From: Acidimicrobiaceae bacterium
GTDB lineage: Bacteria; Actinomycetota; Acidimicrobiia; Acidimicrobiales; Ilumatobacteraceae
DNA: 34,637 bases
Direction of reading: 5' to 3'
NCBI GenBank assembly: GCA_947505655.1
Contig: CANNMD010000008.1
Coordinates: 1-34,637, forward strand
Shown here in pieces: positions 2,987 to 24,911 of the stretch. The notes beneath the pieces were generated by a model. The model was not told the origin of the DNA and searched no databases. It was given only the letters and a program-made list of their open reading frames with translations. Numbering within the stretch: the first letter of the stretch is position 1; each line of letters opens with the position of its first letter. A program made the translations under genes and the position numbers.

Positions 2987-3611
2987 TTGCCGCTGACAGT
3001 TCGGCCAACGCCGTTGCTGGATCGACGACCTTAATTGTGTGCATGCCCATCGCGGCTGCGGGCTTTAAGTTGATGCCGAGGTCATCGAGGAAGATGCACT
3101 GGCTCGGTTGCACATCGAGCAGCTCGCACGCGATTTCGTAAAAGCGCGGTTCGGGTTTGCGAACGCCCACCTTGCTGCTCTCGACGATGGCATCGAACCG
3201 TGCCATCACGGCGGCGAGCGCCAGCGATCGGTCGGTGTTGATAGCCATCGACTCCGCTCCGGTAGCGACCACGTTGTTGGTGAGGCATGCGGTTTTGAAG
3301 CCGGCCGCTTTCACGGCGTCGAGCGCAGCGACCATCGCTGGGCGAATCTCGCCTGCGAGTAAGGCCAACACGTTCGCCCCGCGAACCTCGTGACCGAGGC
3401 TTTGCGAATCGTGGGCAAAGGCCACGTCGAACTCAGCTGGACTGAGTTCGTTGCGCTCGAGGCGAGCCCACGCGTTGGAGTCAGGATTGGTTGCGTTGAC
3501 CGAACGAATGAAGTCGCGCGGCAGGCCGACGCTTGTCTCGTAATGGTTAAACGCTTCGAATGGACTCGACAGAATGACGCCGCCAAAGTCCCAGAGTACG
3601 GCTGTGAACAC
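2967..3611 (-). CDS. HAD-superfamily hydrolase
   Basis: Start chosen at GTG 3611 (VFTAVLWDFGGVILSS); HAD motifs DFGGV, CLTNN, K..VGVRKPEPRFY, IFLDDLGINLKPA. The long N-terminal extension in the track ORF is antisense to the neighbouring gene. Confidence 0.85.
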   Translation of the reverse strand: MFTAVLWDFGGVILSSPFEAFNHYETSVGLPRDFIRSVNATNPDSNAWARLERNELSPAEFDVAFAHDSQSLGHEVRGANVLALLAGEIRPAMVAALDAVKAAGFKTACLTNNVVATGAESMAINTDRSLALAAVMARFDAIVESSKVGVRKPEPRFYEIACELLDVQPSQCIFLDDLGINLKPAAAMGMHTIKVVDPATALAELSAATGLSLS

Positions 3612-3659
3612 GCGACGATCGTACGCACATGGGCGTCGAGATGCTTGACTGGCAGTGTT

Positions 3660-4922
3660 ATGCCTCACCACGTCATCATCGACGGCTCCAATTTGGCCAC
3701 TGAAGGCCGAACCGCGCCAAGCCTCAAACAACTCAACGAAGCGATCGACGCGTATCGCTCCGATTTCCCTACAACCCTGATCACGGTAGTTGTAGACGCC
3801 ACCTTTGGTCATCGAATCGACCCCAAAGAAGTGGCCGAATTCGAGCGTGCCATCGAGACCAACGCCTTTGTGGCGCCGCCGGCCGGTGCCGTCGGCCGCG
3901 GCGATGGTTTCATCTTGAGTATCGCCAATAAGGCCAAAGCAACGGTGTTGTCGAATGACAGCTACCAAGAATTTCACGGCGAATATGCGTGGCTATTCGA
4001 AGAAGGTCGCCTCGTGGGCGGCAAGCCGGTGCCACACGTTGGTTGGGTGTTCGTCTATCGCACGCCCGTGCGTGGGCCCGTAAGCCGCCGATCGGTCAAA
4101 GAGCAAAAGGTTGTCGACAAATCGCCCCGCCGCCGTTCGCCAGCAACCCATCTCAACGATGTGCCCGCGATCTCGGCAAATGCCCCGATGCCCGTGCCGA
4201 AATCGGCTCCTCCAGGCGCTGTCATGCCGGCACCCAAGCCAGTGGCTGCAAAGACCGTGAACGACTTGATGGCGTTCTTGTCGTTTGTTGAGCACCATCC
4301 GGTTGGCACCTCGGTCGAGGCCGTGGTCGACAGTTATTCATCGCACGGCGCCTATGTGCTCATCGGCGAAGCGCACGGCTATGTGCCATTGCGGTTGATG
4401 GGCGATCCGGCACCGCGAAGCGCGCGAGACGCCATGACCCTGGGCGATGTGGTCACGTTGGTCGTCAGCAGTTTTGACGCGAAGCGTCGCAGCATCGATC
4501 TGTCGGTGCTCTCGATGGCTCCCGATGCCAAGCCGGCTGAGCCCAAGAAGGCGACGAAGAAGGCAGCGAAGGCAGACAAGACAGCGAAGGCGGACAAGCC
4601 AGCAAAGGCAGACAAGCCAGTGAAGGCAGCGAAGCCAGAGGTCGCGAAGCCAGAGGTCGCGAAGCCAGAGGTCGCGAAGAAGGCCGTTGCCAAGAACGCT
4701 ACGGCGAAAGCGCCTGCACCGAAGAAGTCTGCGGCGAACAAGGCCCTCGCAGCGCCGGTCGTGGTTGAGGTGCCCGTTGTGAAAGTGCCACCGGCGAAGA
4801 AGGGCGCGGCCAAGAAAGTTGCAGCCAAGCCAGCCGCAGCCAAGCCAGTTGCGAAGAAGGCCGCTGCGCCGACAAAGGTTGCGGCGAAACCGACCAAGCC
4901 AGCCAAACCAGCCAGGGCCTAG
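3660..4922 (+). CDS. NYN-domain (Zc3h12a-like) putative RNase with S1-like domain and Lys/Ala/Pro-rich C-terminal tail
   Basis: Starts MPHHVIIDGSNLA; acidic NYN/PIN motifs (IDGSN, VVVDATF, GRGDGFIL, LSNDSYQEF); S1-like GTSVEAVVDSYSSHGAYVLIGEAHGYVPL...GDVVTLVVSSFDAKRRSIDLSV; then KADKPAKADKP/AKPEVAKPEV tail. The track start at 3390 overlaps the HAD gene antisense and is rejected. Confidence 0.8.
   Translation: MPHHVIIDGSNLATEGRTAPSLKQLNEAIDAYRSDFPTTLITVVVDATFGHRIDPKEVAEFERAIETNAFVAPPAGAVGRGDGFILSIANKAKATVLSNDSYQEFHGEYAWLFEEGRLVGGKPVPHVGWVFVYRTPVRGPVSRRSVKEQKVVDKSPRRRSPATHLNDVPAISANAPMPVPKSAPPGAVMPAPKPVAAKTVNDLMAFLSFVEHHPVGTSVEAVVDSYSSHGAYVLIGEAHGYVPLRLMGDPAPRSARDAMTLGDVVTLVVSSFDAKRRSIDLSVLSMAPDAKPAEPKKATKKAAKADKTAKADKPAKADKPVKAAKPEVAKPEVAKPEVAKKAVAKNATAKAPAPKKSAANKALAAPVVVEVPVVKVPPAKKGAAKKVAAKPAAAKPVAKKAAAPTKVAAKPTKPAKPARA
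4629..4673 (+). repeat. 3 perfect tandem copies of a 15-mer (GCGAAGCCAGAGGTC) encoding AKPEV
   Basis: Direct reading: three consecutive identical copies within the Lys/Ala tail. Confidence 0.95.
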
Positions 4923-20946: not shown

Positions 20947-23072
20947 CCACCGAGCCCATCACGCTTCGCGAACTGCGAGACATCCCGGTCGAACGACTCA
21001 AAGGTGTCGGTGAAAAGAAGCAGGCTGCGCTGAGCGAAATGGGCATCACGTCGGTTCTCGACCTGATTACTAACTACCCGCGGCGCTGGGTCGACCGAAC
21101 GAACGAGGCTCGGGTCAGCGACCTCGAGGCCGGGCGAGAGGCGTTGGTGCTCGTAACGGTGCGTTCTGTGACCAAGCGCACGATGCGTAATCGCCGCACG
21201 ATGGTCGAGGCGCAAGTGGGCGACGGGTCGGGTCGCATGCACGTGGTCTTCTTCAACCAACCGTGGCGCGAACGACAGCTTCGTGAGGGCTTGCAGATTG
21301 TGTTGTTCGGCAAGGCCGAGGTGTACCGCGGTGGCTTGCAGATGACGAATCCCATTGTCGATCTCATCGGCGATCGAACCGGTCGCATCGTGGCGATTTA
21401 TCCGCAGAGCGAAAAGGTTCAGCTCAGCACTTGGGAGATTGCTGGATGGGTCGAAAACGCGCTCGACCGTTGCGCAGCGCGCGGCTTCGGTGATCCGTTG
21501 CCGGCATCGATTCGCAACGAGTTTGGGCTCATCGATCGAACCATTGCGATGCGTCAGATTCATCTCCCCGAAACCATTGGCGAGAAAGAACAAGCGCGCC
21601 GCCGACTCGCGTTCGACGAACTGTTTCGCGTGCAAGCGGTGTTGGTGATGCGCAAGCGCGCCTTCGAGCGCGAGCAGCGCGGCATTCGCCACGAGACCGA
21701 CAGCGAGTTGGTGCGGCGCTTCCACGCTCAACTGCCGTACGACCTCACCGGCGCTCAGCAGCGTGCCATCGGTGAGATCGAGGTCGACCTGTGCGGCCCG
21801 CATCCGATGCATCGATTGCTGCAGGGCGACGTTGGCTCGGGCAAGACGGTAGTTGCTGTGTCCGCGATGTTGTGCGCTGTGCAGGGCGGGCATCAAGGCG
21901 CGCTCATGGCGCCAACCGAAGTGCTTGCCGAGCAGCATGCAACCGGCGTCCGGCGACTGCTTGAGGGCCTCCGGGTGCCCGATCCCGACAACCTGTTTGG
22001 CGAGCGCGCCATCAACGTGCAGTTGCTCACCAACCGAATCAGCGGCCAAGAGCGCCGAGACGTGATGGCCGGTCTCGCCGACGGCACGGTCGACATCATC
22101 ATTGGCACTCACGCTCTGATCCAAGACGCGGTGGCGTTTCACAGCCTCGGAGTTGTAGTTGTCGACGAGCAGCATCGCTTTGGTGTCGAGCAGCGCGCTG
22201 CACTGCGAACCAAGGGCGCTGGCGACGTCGTTCCCGACGTGCTCGTGATGACGGCAACACCAATTCCGCGCACCGCCGCAATGACCGTGTACGGCGATCT
22301 CGATGTGAGCGTGCTCGACGAACTGCCGCCGGGGCGCACCCCAATCGTCACCCATTGGGCCAATGGTCAGCTGATGGAGTTGGCGGCGTGGTCCGACGTG
22401 CGCGAGGCGGTCAGCGAAGGCCGCCAGGCGTATGTGGTGTGTCCGCTGATCGACGAGAGCGAGAAGCTTGAGGTTGCATCCGCGCAGGAGACATTCGAGC
22501 GTTTGATGCATCAAGACCTCAAGGGCCTACGCATCGGCTTGCTGCACGGGCGAATGTCGTCGGCCGAAAAAGAACAAGTGATGAATGCCTTTCGGGCGGT
22601 TGAACTCGACGTGTTGGTTGCAACCACCGTGATCGAGGTTGGCGTCGATGTACCCAACGCCACCGTCATGGTCATTCTCGACGCAGACCGATTCGGCATT
22701 GCTCAACTACACCAGCTCCGCGGACGCGTTGGCCGCGGTCAGCATGCTTCGCTGTGTTGGCTTGTCACCAGTGACCTCGAAGACACCAACCCGCGAATCG
22801 AGGCACTCGTCGCCACCACAAATGGTTTCGAGCTGGCCGAAGTAGATCTCGACCTGCGCGGCGAGGGCACGCTGATGAACACCATGCAAAAGGGTCGCAG
22901 CGATCTGAAGTTGGCCTCGTTGCGCCGCGATCGCGAGTTGGTTGGCTTGGCTCGCCAAGCTGCGTTCGCCATCATCGACGCTGACCCGTTACTCGCCGAG
23001 CACCCGTTGGTGCTCGATGAGGTTCGTCTGCTGTTGAGCGCCGAAGACGAAGAGTTCTTGTTTAAGAGCTAG
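20943..23072 (+). CDS. recG: ATP-dependent DNA helicase RecG
   Basis: KGVGEKKQAALSEMGITSVLDLITNYPRRWVDR (wedge domain), LLQGDVGSGKTVVA, MAPTEVLAEQH, IIGTHALIQ, VVVDEQHRFGVEQR, LVMTATPIPRT, LHGRMSSAEKEQVM, LHQLRGRVGRGQHASLCWL; GTG start overlaps upstream stop. Confidence 0.96.
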   Translation: MTTEPITLRELRDIPVERLKGVGEKKQAALSEMGITSVLDLITNYPRRWVDRTNEARVSDLEAGREALVLVTVRSVTKRTMRNRRTMVEAQVGDGSGRMHVVFFNQPWRERQLREGLQIVLFGKAEVYRGGLQMTNPIVDLIGDRTGRIVAIYPQSEKVQLSTWEIAGWVENALDRCAARGFGDPLPASIRNEFGLIDRTIAMRQIHLPETIGEKEQARRRLAFDELFRVQAVLVMRKRAFEREQRGIRHETDSELVRRFHAQLPYDLTGAQQRAIGEIEVDLCGPHPMHRLLQGDVGSGKTVVAVSAMLCAVQGGHQGALMAPTEVLAEQHATGVRRLLEGLRVPDPDNLFGERAINVQLLTNRISGQERRDVMAGLADGTVDIIIGTHALIQDAVAFHSLGVVVVDEQHRFGVEQRAALRTKGAGDVVPDVLVMTATPIPRTAAMTVYGDLDVSVLDELPPGRTPIVTHWANGQLMELAAWSDVREAVSEGRQAYVVCPLIDESEKLEVASAQETFERLMHQDLKGLRIGLLHGRMSSAEKEQVMNAFRAVELDVLVATTVIEVGVDVPNATVMVILDADRFGIAQLHQLRGRVGRGQHASLCWLVTSDLEDTNPRIEALVATTNGFELAEVDLDLRGEGTLMNTMQKGRSDLKLASLRRDRELVGLARQAAFAIIDADPLLAEHPLVLDEVRLLLSAEDEEFLFKS

Positions 23073-23076
23073 CGCT

Positions 23077-23097
23077 GGGTCGTTAGTCGTACGACCC
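23077..23097 (+). terminator. Perfect 7-bp inverted repeat just after the recG stop
   Basis: GGGTCGT-TAGTCGT-ACGACCC; no U-tract, so factor-independent termination is uncertain. Confidence 0.35.
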
Positions 23098-23154
23098 TCG
23101 GGCGATCTGGCGTAGTCCATTCGACCCCTTAACAAACATTGGATTGACCACTAC

Positions 23155-23183
23155 TTGACAGGGTGCGATCGTCGGCTTATAGA
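23155..23183 (+). promoter_or_regulatory. Sigma70-type promoter for the TSP3-like gene
   Basis: TTGACA (23155-23160), 17-nt spacer, TATAGA (23178-23183); ATG at 23227 preceded by a GGGGG-type SD. Confidence 0.65.
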
Positions 23184-23226
23184 ACAGGTCCCTGTGGGGC
23201 AAAGTCGAAATTGTTGGGGGATAGTC

Positions 23227-24327
23227 ATGTTGCCAAGTATCGCTCGTCGTTACGACGGGAGAAGCCTGCGGTTGCGCCTCATTCACGCTGGAGCCGCTTC
23301 GCTGCTCGCGTTGGCGCCGGTCGCTATCGCGGGCCTTACTGGTTCAGGTGGTGCCGCGGCGACCACCGCATCGAAAATCGATACCGACGGCGATCGCATC
23401 CCCAACCAGTTGGACACAGACATTGACAACGACGGTGTTGTAAATGGCTCCGACGACGACGTCGACGGCGATGGCATCGCGAACGGAACTGACTTCGACG
23501 TTGATGCCGACAGCTTGCTCAACGGGTCGAAGAAGGAAAAGGACATCGATAGCGACGGCGCGCTGAATGGCGCTGACTCCGACATGGACGCTGACGGCGC
23601 CTCGAACGGCAGCGACGATGACACCGATGGCGATGGCTCATCCAATGGCAGCGACGCAGATGTCGATGGCGATGGCGTCAAGAACGGCAGGGACGGCGAC
23701 GTCGACAGCGATGGACTCTTGAACTCGGTAGACCCCGACGTCGATGCCGATGGCGTTTCGAACGGCAGCGACGATGACACCGATGGCGATGGCCTGTCGA
23801 ACTCGGACACCAATGAACGAGACATTGATGGCGACGGCATCCAGGACAAGTCAGACCCCGACGTCGACGGTGATGGCGCCTCGAACTCAAGCGACTCCGA
23901 TATCGACGGCGACAGCATCTCGAACGGTAGCGACGACGACATCGATGGCGACGGTGCGCTGAACAGTGCCATTGGCGAGAAGGACATCGATGGCGATGGC
24001 GTGCTCGACGGCAGCGACCGCGATGTCGACGGTGACGGAGTGTCCAACGGCAGCGACAGCGATGTCGATGGCGATAGCACTGCCAACGGCAGCGACGATG
24101 ACGTCGATGGCGATGGCCTGTCGAACGGGTCGAAGAGGGAGGACGACATCGACGGTGACGGCAAGGTCGACAGCATCGACGACGACTCTGACGGCGACGG
24201 AGTCTCCAACGGCCGCGACGATGACATCGATGGTGACGGCATCAGCAACTCGAACGACGCCGACGAAGACGGCGATGGAGTGAAGAACTCAAGCAGCTCG
24301 ACCACATCGACCACTCTGCTGCCGTAG
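23227..24327 (+). CDS. Secreted Asp-rich TSP3-like calcium-binding repeat protein
   Basis: Signal-peptide-like MLPSIARRYDGRSLRLRLIHAGAASLLALAPVAIAGLTG, then 23 D-x-D-x-D-G units (e.g. DVDGDGVSNGSDS) and a Ser/Thr tail SSSSTTSTTLLP. Confidence 0.88.
   Translation: MLPSIARRYDGRSLRLRLIHAGAASLLALAPVAIAGLTGSGGAAATTASKIDTDGDRIPNQLDTDIDNDGVVNGSDDDVDGDGIANGTDFDVDADSLLNGSKKEKDIDSDGALNGADSDMDADGASNGSDDDTDGDGSSNGSDADVDGDGVKNGRDGDVDSDGLLNSVDPDVDADGVSNGSDDDTDGDGLSNSDTNERDIDGDGIQDKSDPDVDGDGASNSSDSDIDGDSISNGSDDDIDGDGALNSAIGEKDIDGDGVLDGSDRDVDGDGVSNGSDSDVDGDSTANGSDDDVDGDGLSNGSKREDDIDGDGKVDSIDDDSDGDGVSNGRDDDIDGDGISNSNDADEDGDGVKNSSSSTTSTTLLP
23380..24288 (+). repeat. 23-unit Asp-rich repeat array (13 aa/39 nt units, four 15-aa variants)
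   Basis: Manual parsing: unit lengths sum exactly to 303 aa; 15-aa variants are units 4, 11, 15 and 19. Confidence 0.92.
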
Positions 24328-24331
24328 ATCT

Positions 24332-24364
24332 CTCAAACTTTTCTCAAGTTCCCCTCAAGTTCGG
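24332..24364 (+). promoter_or_regulatory. Three 11-bp-phased direct repeats upstream of whiB
   Basis: CTCAAACTTTT / CTCAAGTTCCC / CTCAAGTTCGG starting at 24332, 24343 and 24354. Confidence 0.6.
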
Positions 24365-24397
24365 CATTGACGCGCCGATCTATCTGGTGTGGGAATC

Positions 24398-24706
24398 ATG
24401 TTTAGAGACGATCCAGCCAACACATACGAGTTCGATCTTGCATCGCTGACACAACGCCCTGCGTGGCATAGTGAGGCAGCGTGTCGGGGGATGCAGAACA
24501 TCAACTTCTATCCGGTGCGTGGAGAGAACGCTGCTCCAGCATTGGCCATCTGTGGCACGTGCACGGTGCAAGACGAGTGTCTGGCACAGGGCGTGAGAAA
24601 CAACGAGCGTGGCGTGTGGGGCGGCTCAACAGCGCGTCAGCGCCGTCAGATTCGCACGACCTCGGCGCTGATCCGGCCGCGTCTGGATGCCACGACCCTG
24701 TTGTGA
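24398..24706 (+). CDS. WhiB-family Fe-S transcriptional regulator
   Basis: PAWHSEAACRGMQNINFYPVRGENAAPALAICGTCTVQDECLAQGVRNNERGVWGGSTARQRRQIRT: four-Cys pattern C-Xn-C-X2-C-X5-C and the GVWGG turn. Confidence 0.93.
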   Translation: MFRDDPANTYEFDLASLTQRPAWHSEAACRGMQNINFYPVRGENAAPALAICGTCTVQDECLAQGVRNNERGVWGGSTARQRRQIRTTSALIRPRLDATTLL

Positions 24707-24737
24707 GCCGTGAGCCGTGAGCCGTGAGTCGTTAGTC
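24703..24737. repeat. Five tandem heptamers (GTGAGCC x3, GTGAGTC, GTTAGTC)
   Basis: Read directly; followed by the palindrome CGAGTGACTCG (24737-24747). Spans the stop codons of whiB and the convergent zinc-ribbon ORF. Confidence 0.9.
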
Positions 24738-24911
24738 GAGTGACTCGGGGAGTACGAGATCCCAGCGATCGAGACAGTCCTGACATCGGTAGGACACGAA
24801 ATCTCCGGGGTACCAGAGCCCGTCTTCGGGTGGCTGAGTGAGCAAAAATGCCCGCCCGCCACAGTCGACACACACGATCTCGGGCTCGGGAGACAAGTCA
24901 GATTCAGCCAT
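24732..24911 (-). CDS. Small zinc-ribbon-like protein
   Basis: MAESDLSPEPEIVCVDCGGRAFLLTQPPEDGLWYPGDFVSYRCQDCLDRWDLVLPESLD: two CxxC knuckles; start placed at ATG 24911. Confidence 0.7.
   Translation of the reverse strand: MAESDLSPEPEIVCVDCGGRAFLLTQPPEDGLWYPGDFVSYRCQDCLDRWDLVLPESLD

Follow-up and report, generated by a model that had tools for sequence, protein, structure and literature searches.

Can a protein built almost entirely of aspartate-rich D-x-D-x-D loops have an order that is maintained by selection, and if so, what might it do outside the cell? Repeat proteins of such purity tend to be set aside as low complexity. The case considered here is encoded between recG and whiB, with rsmD downstream of whiB, in a window of 34,637 nucleotides (contig 8 of an Acidimicrobiaceae assembly of 2.76 Mb in 282 contigs). 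The repeat order of this protein, termed copy A, is real, ordered and conserved, and the earlier interpretation of the locus (the original prediction) is right in part.

Parsing of the translated ORF, from which the unit counts were taken, gave a leader, 23 D-x-D-x-D loops and a 12-residue tail (Table 1), with the ORF, unit number and unit lengths as originally described. Units 4, 11, 15 and 19 have 15 aa and the remaining units 13 aa; they start at residues 50/52, 65, 78, 91, 106 and so on up to 346, giving modules of 54, 93, 54, 54 and a truncated 52 aa. The start codon is supported by the orthologues, as their conservation begins there and a GTG stands at the matching place in the copy of congener G002. 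Upstream of the gene, the TTGAC box is kept in all three A copies and the second hexamer lacks conservation; the promoter-like element was not returned by a consensus scan, and a strong conserved promoter was rejected because conservation is limited to the TTGAC box. An antisense ORF of 343 aa (23283-24314, minus strand) was likewise dismissed as a side effect of the Asp-codon repeat, since the loci of paralogue B (see below) show the same.

Table 1. Features of the copy A locus, in window coordinates.
Feature	Position	Strand	Basis
Copy A, secreted-type 23-loop repeat protein, 366 aa	23227..24327	+	ORF and unit parsing
Promoter-like TTGACA-N17-TATAGA	23155..23183	+	Upstream sequence comparison, suggestive only
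Signal-peptide-like leader, predicted cleavage after A43-A44-A45	23227..23361	+	ASA in both A orthologues
Module 1, units 1-4, 54 aa; unit 4 of 15 aa, NGSKKEK	23380..23541	+	Unit parsing
Module 2, units 5-11, 93 aa; unit 11 of 15 aa, NSDTNER	23542..23820	+	Unit parsing
Module 3, units 12-15, 54 aa; unit 15 of 15 aa, NSAIGEK; opener with D at loop position 9	23821..23982	+	
Module 4, units 16-19, 54 aa; unit 19 of 15 aa, NGSKRED; opener with D at position 9	23983..24144	+	
Truncated module 5, units 20-23; opener with D at position 9	24145..24300	+	Unit parsing
Ser/Thr tail SSSSTTSTTLLP	24289..24324	+	STTLLP ending conserved in the G002 copy
39-nt tandem array	23596..24128	.	Tandem Repeats Finder
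162-nt tandem array, 3.0 copies	23731..24219	.	Tandem Repeats Finder

The leader consists of an Arg-rich n-region, a hydrophobic stretch at about residues 23-37 and A-x-A at 43-45, directly before the first loop. The Arg-rich start, the hydrophobic stretch and the A-x-A precede the first loop in every copy, supporting the predicted secreted-type N-terminus as a signal-peptide-like leader. Its invariant Arg residues 7-8 fall short of the full Tat consensus, and the Sec route is assumed here.

The predicted 39-nt and 162-nt diagonals were both recovered as arrays by Tandem Repeats Finder, the 39-nt array with 13.4 copies (score 204) and the 162-nt array with the higher score (392). When the order of the units was shuffled, a lag of four units alone gave clearly raised similarity, both for the window protein (0 of 5000 shuffles) and at the DNA level for its gene (P = 0.002). 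After the 15-aa units and positions 10-13 were left out, the lag-4 signal persisted in the three A copies (P values of 0.006-0.017) and was lost in the B copies (P values of 0.11-0.22), indicating that the period of B rests mainly on its marker units. The hierarchical organization of 13 and 54 aa is supported.

Orthologues of copy A were found in two of eight congeners, with 91% identity in G007, in which the contig ends inside the gene, and 82% identity in G002. Each of the three A-bearing genomes also carries one divergent paralogue B (about 62% identity) with the same leader as A; six other congeners have neither, so that A and B genes occur in three of the nine genomes of the genus. The leader common to the six copies gave no convincing score elsewhere in the genus. 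Units 2-15 begin at identical residues in all six copies, with the 15-aa units 4, 11 and 15 at residues 91, 184 and 238; a few B units and one unit of the G002 A copy are split differently by the parser, where the alignment is gapless. Loop lengths thus follow exactly the same order in three species and on both sides of an old gene duplication, and the identical lattice indicates that the 4-7-4 order was already in place before A and B diverged. Whole-gene dN/dS values among orthologues range from 0.11 to 0.31, and those of the 49-residue leader scatter more widely, with one value of 0.51. Values of 0.1-0.3 point to a protein under purifying selection.

Length differences between copies were found at both scales. 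The 366-aa copy of the window and the 312-aa A copy of G002 are separated by a single clean gap of 162 nt (codons 295-348, beginning in unit 19 of copy A), and the B copies of the same two genomes by a single clean gap of 39 nt. Size change by one module and by one unit has thus happened near the C-terminus. A loss may account for the 162-nt difference, the direction of which has no confident polarity. These gaps show change at both of the scales originally proposed for growth by duplication, but a recent 162-nt duplication is not supported, since the module copies share at most about 73% DNA identity. Together with the 4-7-4 order being older than the A/B split, this divergence indicates an old, frozen arrangement. 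The neighboring 39-nt units at the C-terminus of B, which are up to 92% identical, look recent.

Clean gaps of this kind, the readiness with which repeat arrays grow and shrink and the lineage-restricted distribution would suit a repeat array that arose by slippage behind a signal peptide, is neutral or nearly so and has little function. This explanation is considered very improbable, because almost every orthologue comparison, for leader and core alike, gives a dN/dS of about 0.1-0.3, a lattice of 15 units is frozen in six copies, and two paralogues are present in each of three genomes, the one incomplete copy being cut by a contig end.

The loops themselves are close to invariant at their predicted ligand positions. 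Among the 103 13-aa units of the six copies, D1 and D5 are found in 100%, D3 in 98%, D12 in 95% and G6 in 80%, and position 9 is Asn in 81% and Asp in 19%. All 20 of the 15-aa units have D1, D3, D5, N9 and E14, and none has D12. A 13-aa unit may accordingly be read as an EF-like loop of 12 residues followed by a single linker residue, and a 15-aa unit as a loop of 14 residues followed by one more; 14-residue loops closed by Glu occur in S100 proteins. The original prediction had observed that the modules after units 11, 15 and 19 open with D at position 9, which is correct and generalizes to six copies: Asp9 is present in 17 of the 20 units that follow a long unit and in 3 of the 83 other 13-aa units; these sequences are mutually related, so that a P value for the contrast overstates their independence. 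New here are the 15-aa units without an acid at position 12, their invariant Glu14 and the switch to Asp9 in the next loop.

The same coupling was observed outside the genus, in L113/L114 (Acidimicrobiales, same family, another genus) and L049/L071 (Verrucomicrobiota). In these proteins together, position 9 is D in 23 and N in 1 of the units after E14 units, and D in 0 and N in 6 after 13-aa units; the count covered those fetched proteins that have three or more Glu14-type units, a restriction picked after the data were seen. As the long units often stand in runs, inheritance of one unit type could explain part of this pattern; the informative cases are those at the boundaries (the first long unit and the first unit after a run), and they agree with the E14-D9 switch. 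A general rule for position 9 over all fetched DxDxDG proteins failed (P = 0.77), with 319 D to 117 N after 13-aa units and 141 D to 48 N after 15-aa units. The rule is thus confined to proteins whose 15-aa units carry Glu14 and is not general for TSP3-like repeats.

Mature copy A contains no Cys and no Trp, is about 31% Asp, and has a net charge of about -88 and a pI of about 4. With this composition and as a free, unanchored secreted form, it could be an extracellular calcium buffer or mineral-interacting protein, in which the Asp-rich chain sequesters Ca2+ or steers the growth of carbonate or phosphate mineral at the cell surface and shape is unimportant. Bulk charge, however, needs no exact loop positions, no invariant Glu14 and no position-9 switch preserved through an old duplication, and Gly, Asn and the loop geometry are conserved as well, which makes such a role unlikely.

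The label of thrombospondin type 3 (TSP3) given to the repeats was not borne out by profiles. Neither Pfam TSP3 profile (PF02412, PF18884) matched copy A above the curated cut-off, and PF18884 had zero matches across the genome of the window, whereas the same search detected PF18884 in the classical proteins L018 and L065. The look-alikes L138 and L020 were also missed, and L023 scored below the cut-off. As the profiles detect classical repeats but not copy A, the protein is better called TSP3-like, outside the Pfam families. It shares tandem D-x-D-x-D-G calcium loops with the thrombospondin repeats (PF02412; COMP structure 3FBY), and the COMP TSP3 region was its best match among solved structures, a weak one by phmmer (E = 0.003); a PDB search with the module profile found nothing. 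Bacterial Asp-rich loops are likewise shared with PF18884, although its unit has 22 residues. Copy A has a period of 13/15 instead of 36 or 22 residues, and lacks the Cys pairs of both families and the long/short motif alternation and EGF or lectin domains of PF02412. In function it is probably akin to a TSP3 wire, although it does not pass as a family member. The top NCBIfam match (E = 9 × 10−4) was the MtsC-type MYXO-CTERM cohesion protein (NF047638), by model name a myxobacterial cell-cell cohesion protein with TSP3-kind loop repeats; copy A scored 18.2 bits, the cut-off of the model being 350, and lacks the MYXO-CTERM tail, its own tail SSSSTTSTTLLP having no Cys and no membrane segment.

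Other calcium-binding or surface systems fit less well. The 13-aa units agree with the 12-residue D-x-D-x-D-G-x-x-N/D-x-x-D loop of EF-hands and dockerins, but the flanking helix and the doublet of about 22 residues are absent and no Pfam match was obtained; the loops stand one residue apart, leaving no room for a helix. Unlike RTX proteins, copy A has no GGxGxD motif and carries an N-terminal leader rather than signs of type I secretion. Unlike sortase-anchored proteins, it ends without LPXTG, membrane segment or basic tail. A phage or mobile origin was rejected, with no match in phages or PHROGs, and a literature search found no description of this protein class.

The nearest plan is that of L138/L139 (same family, another genus; genomes as for L113/L114), which share a leader ending in ASAT, the loops and a Ser/Thr tail and show E14-D9 coupling, but consist mostly of 15-aa Glu14 units. 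L023 (Terrimicrobiaceae) has a leader, a short tail and nearly pure loops, mainly in 13-aa units. The 54-aa rhythm was not seen in L138/L139 or L023. L020 (Planctomycetota) is a lipoprotein-like look-alike. Outside the genome of the window, a phylum-wide search gave no more than weak partial matches. Since similar loops occur in bacteria mostly within large and often multidomain proteins (L028, L029, L065), copy A might be an ordinary TSP3 linker whose partner domains were lost, or a piece of some larger adhesin or enzyme. Complete copies of 312-366 aa with nothing further attached, the stop codon and tail kept in the A copy of G002 and the failure of the TSP3 profiles render this quite improbable. 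The pure repeat content without any other domain, as first described, is supported by sequence parsing and by the Pfam and NCBIfam searches.

A search across the order turned up further short, pure repeat proteins, but of a leaderless type. L155 (G501:C37), L165 (G501:C25), L161 (G428:C1), and L158 and L166 (G551:C33) are short, near-pure DxDxDG proteins that start with MSDF, and several end with GPFQA; they belong to other Acidimicrobiales families, and the two copies of G551 lie about 26 kb apart. They apparently form a separate, intracellular group. In the same family as the window, L136 (G242:C584) is a giant relative, a contig-filling frame of 1411 aa, cut at both ends, of nearly all DxDxDG loops, mostly 13 aa apart.

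Our preferred reading, held with a probability of about 0.5, is a secreted chain that Ca2+ folds, once it is outside the cell, into an extended wire linking anionic polymers of the surface or matrix. The chain would leave unfolded through Sec, given low cytosolic Ca2+ and strong self-repulsion, be cleaved after A-x-A and then fold as each loop binds Ca2+, the loaded loops forming an extended rod and the Ca2+-free chain being disordered. The 15-aa units would be 14-residue-loop variants rather than broken loops, in which Glu14 takes over from position 12 as the closing acid. Asp at position 9 of the next loop would compensate for this, and the long units, mostly one in every four loops, would set a regular kink or register point. 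As to function, copy A would most likely be a soluble or matrix-associated spacer or cross-linker, whose Ca2+ bridges to anionic wall or exopolymer support cohesion. Paralogues A and B, of the same design with different tails (Ser/Thr in A, basic Gly/Ser/Lys in B), could be two components of the matrix.

The calcium wire is favored by the near-invariant loop ligands, the six-copy lattice, the low dN/dS, the E14-D9 coupling outside the genus, the plan of L138/L139, the composition and charge, and the weak COMP match. Against it, AlphaFold2 failed to yield a usable model, with a pLDDT of 38 for full copy A and of 45 for a 108-aa two-module segment. Searches of the sequence with Pfam and NCBIfam returned no sortase motif, lipobox, post-leader membrane segment or known binding domain, and no anchor, partner gene or adhesion domain was found in sequence, profile searches or neighbors. 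Also against the wire stand the presence of A/B genes in only three of nine genomes and the gene neighbors, as neither recG, whiB and rsmD nor those of the B locus (a DUF3048 gene, an uncharacterized 166-aa protein and an AMP ligase) point to a matrix.

A bolder version, which we regard as possible though doubtful, is a class of calcium wires with an interface code of its own, in which a 12-residue loop would call for Asn9, and a Glu14-closed 14-residue loop for Asp9, in the loop that comes after it, with long loops mostly every four units acting as ruler or kink in a secreted rod with a selected 54-residue superperiod. Recurring in another genus and phylum, the E14-D9 coupling offers a simple rule for how neighboring calcium loops may share ligands. 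For structural work, copy A is a candidate for a minimal natural calcium wire free of cysteine; it is also a candidate matrix protein for uncultured, probably freshwater actinobacteria with little-known surfaces.

The setting of the gene varies within the genus. The gene directly after recG is pilin-like in G008 and MFS-like in G003, as judged by eye from the ORFs, and because of these differing genes the recG-rsmD gap (23072-24838) looks like a variable insertion spot. An adjoining whiB is present only in the window's genome and G002, the contig of G007 ending inside its A copy. Just past whiB lies a GTGAGCC 7-nt tandem repeat of 4.3 copies (24703-24732). Elsewhere in the window, the ORF at 3390-4922 has a Lys/Ala/Pro-rich repeat tail at 4559-4852 with 18- and 15-nt tandem arrays.
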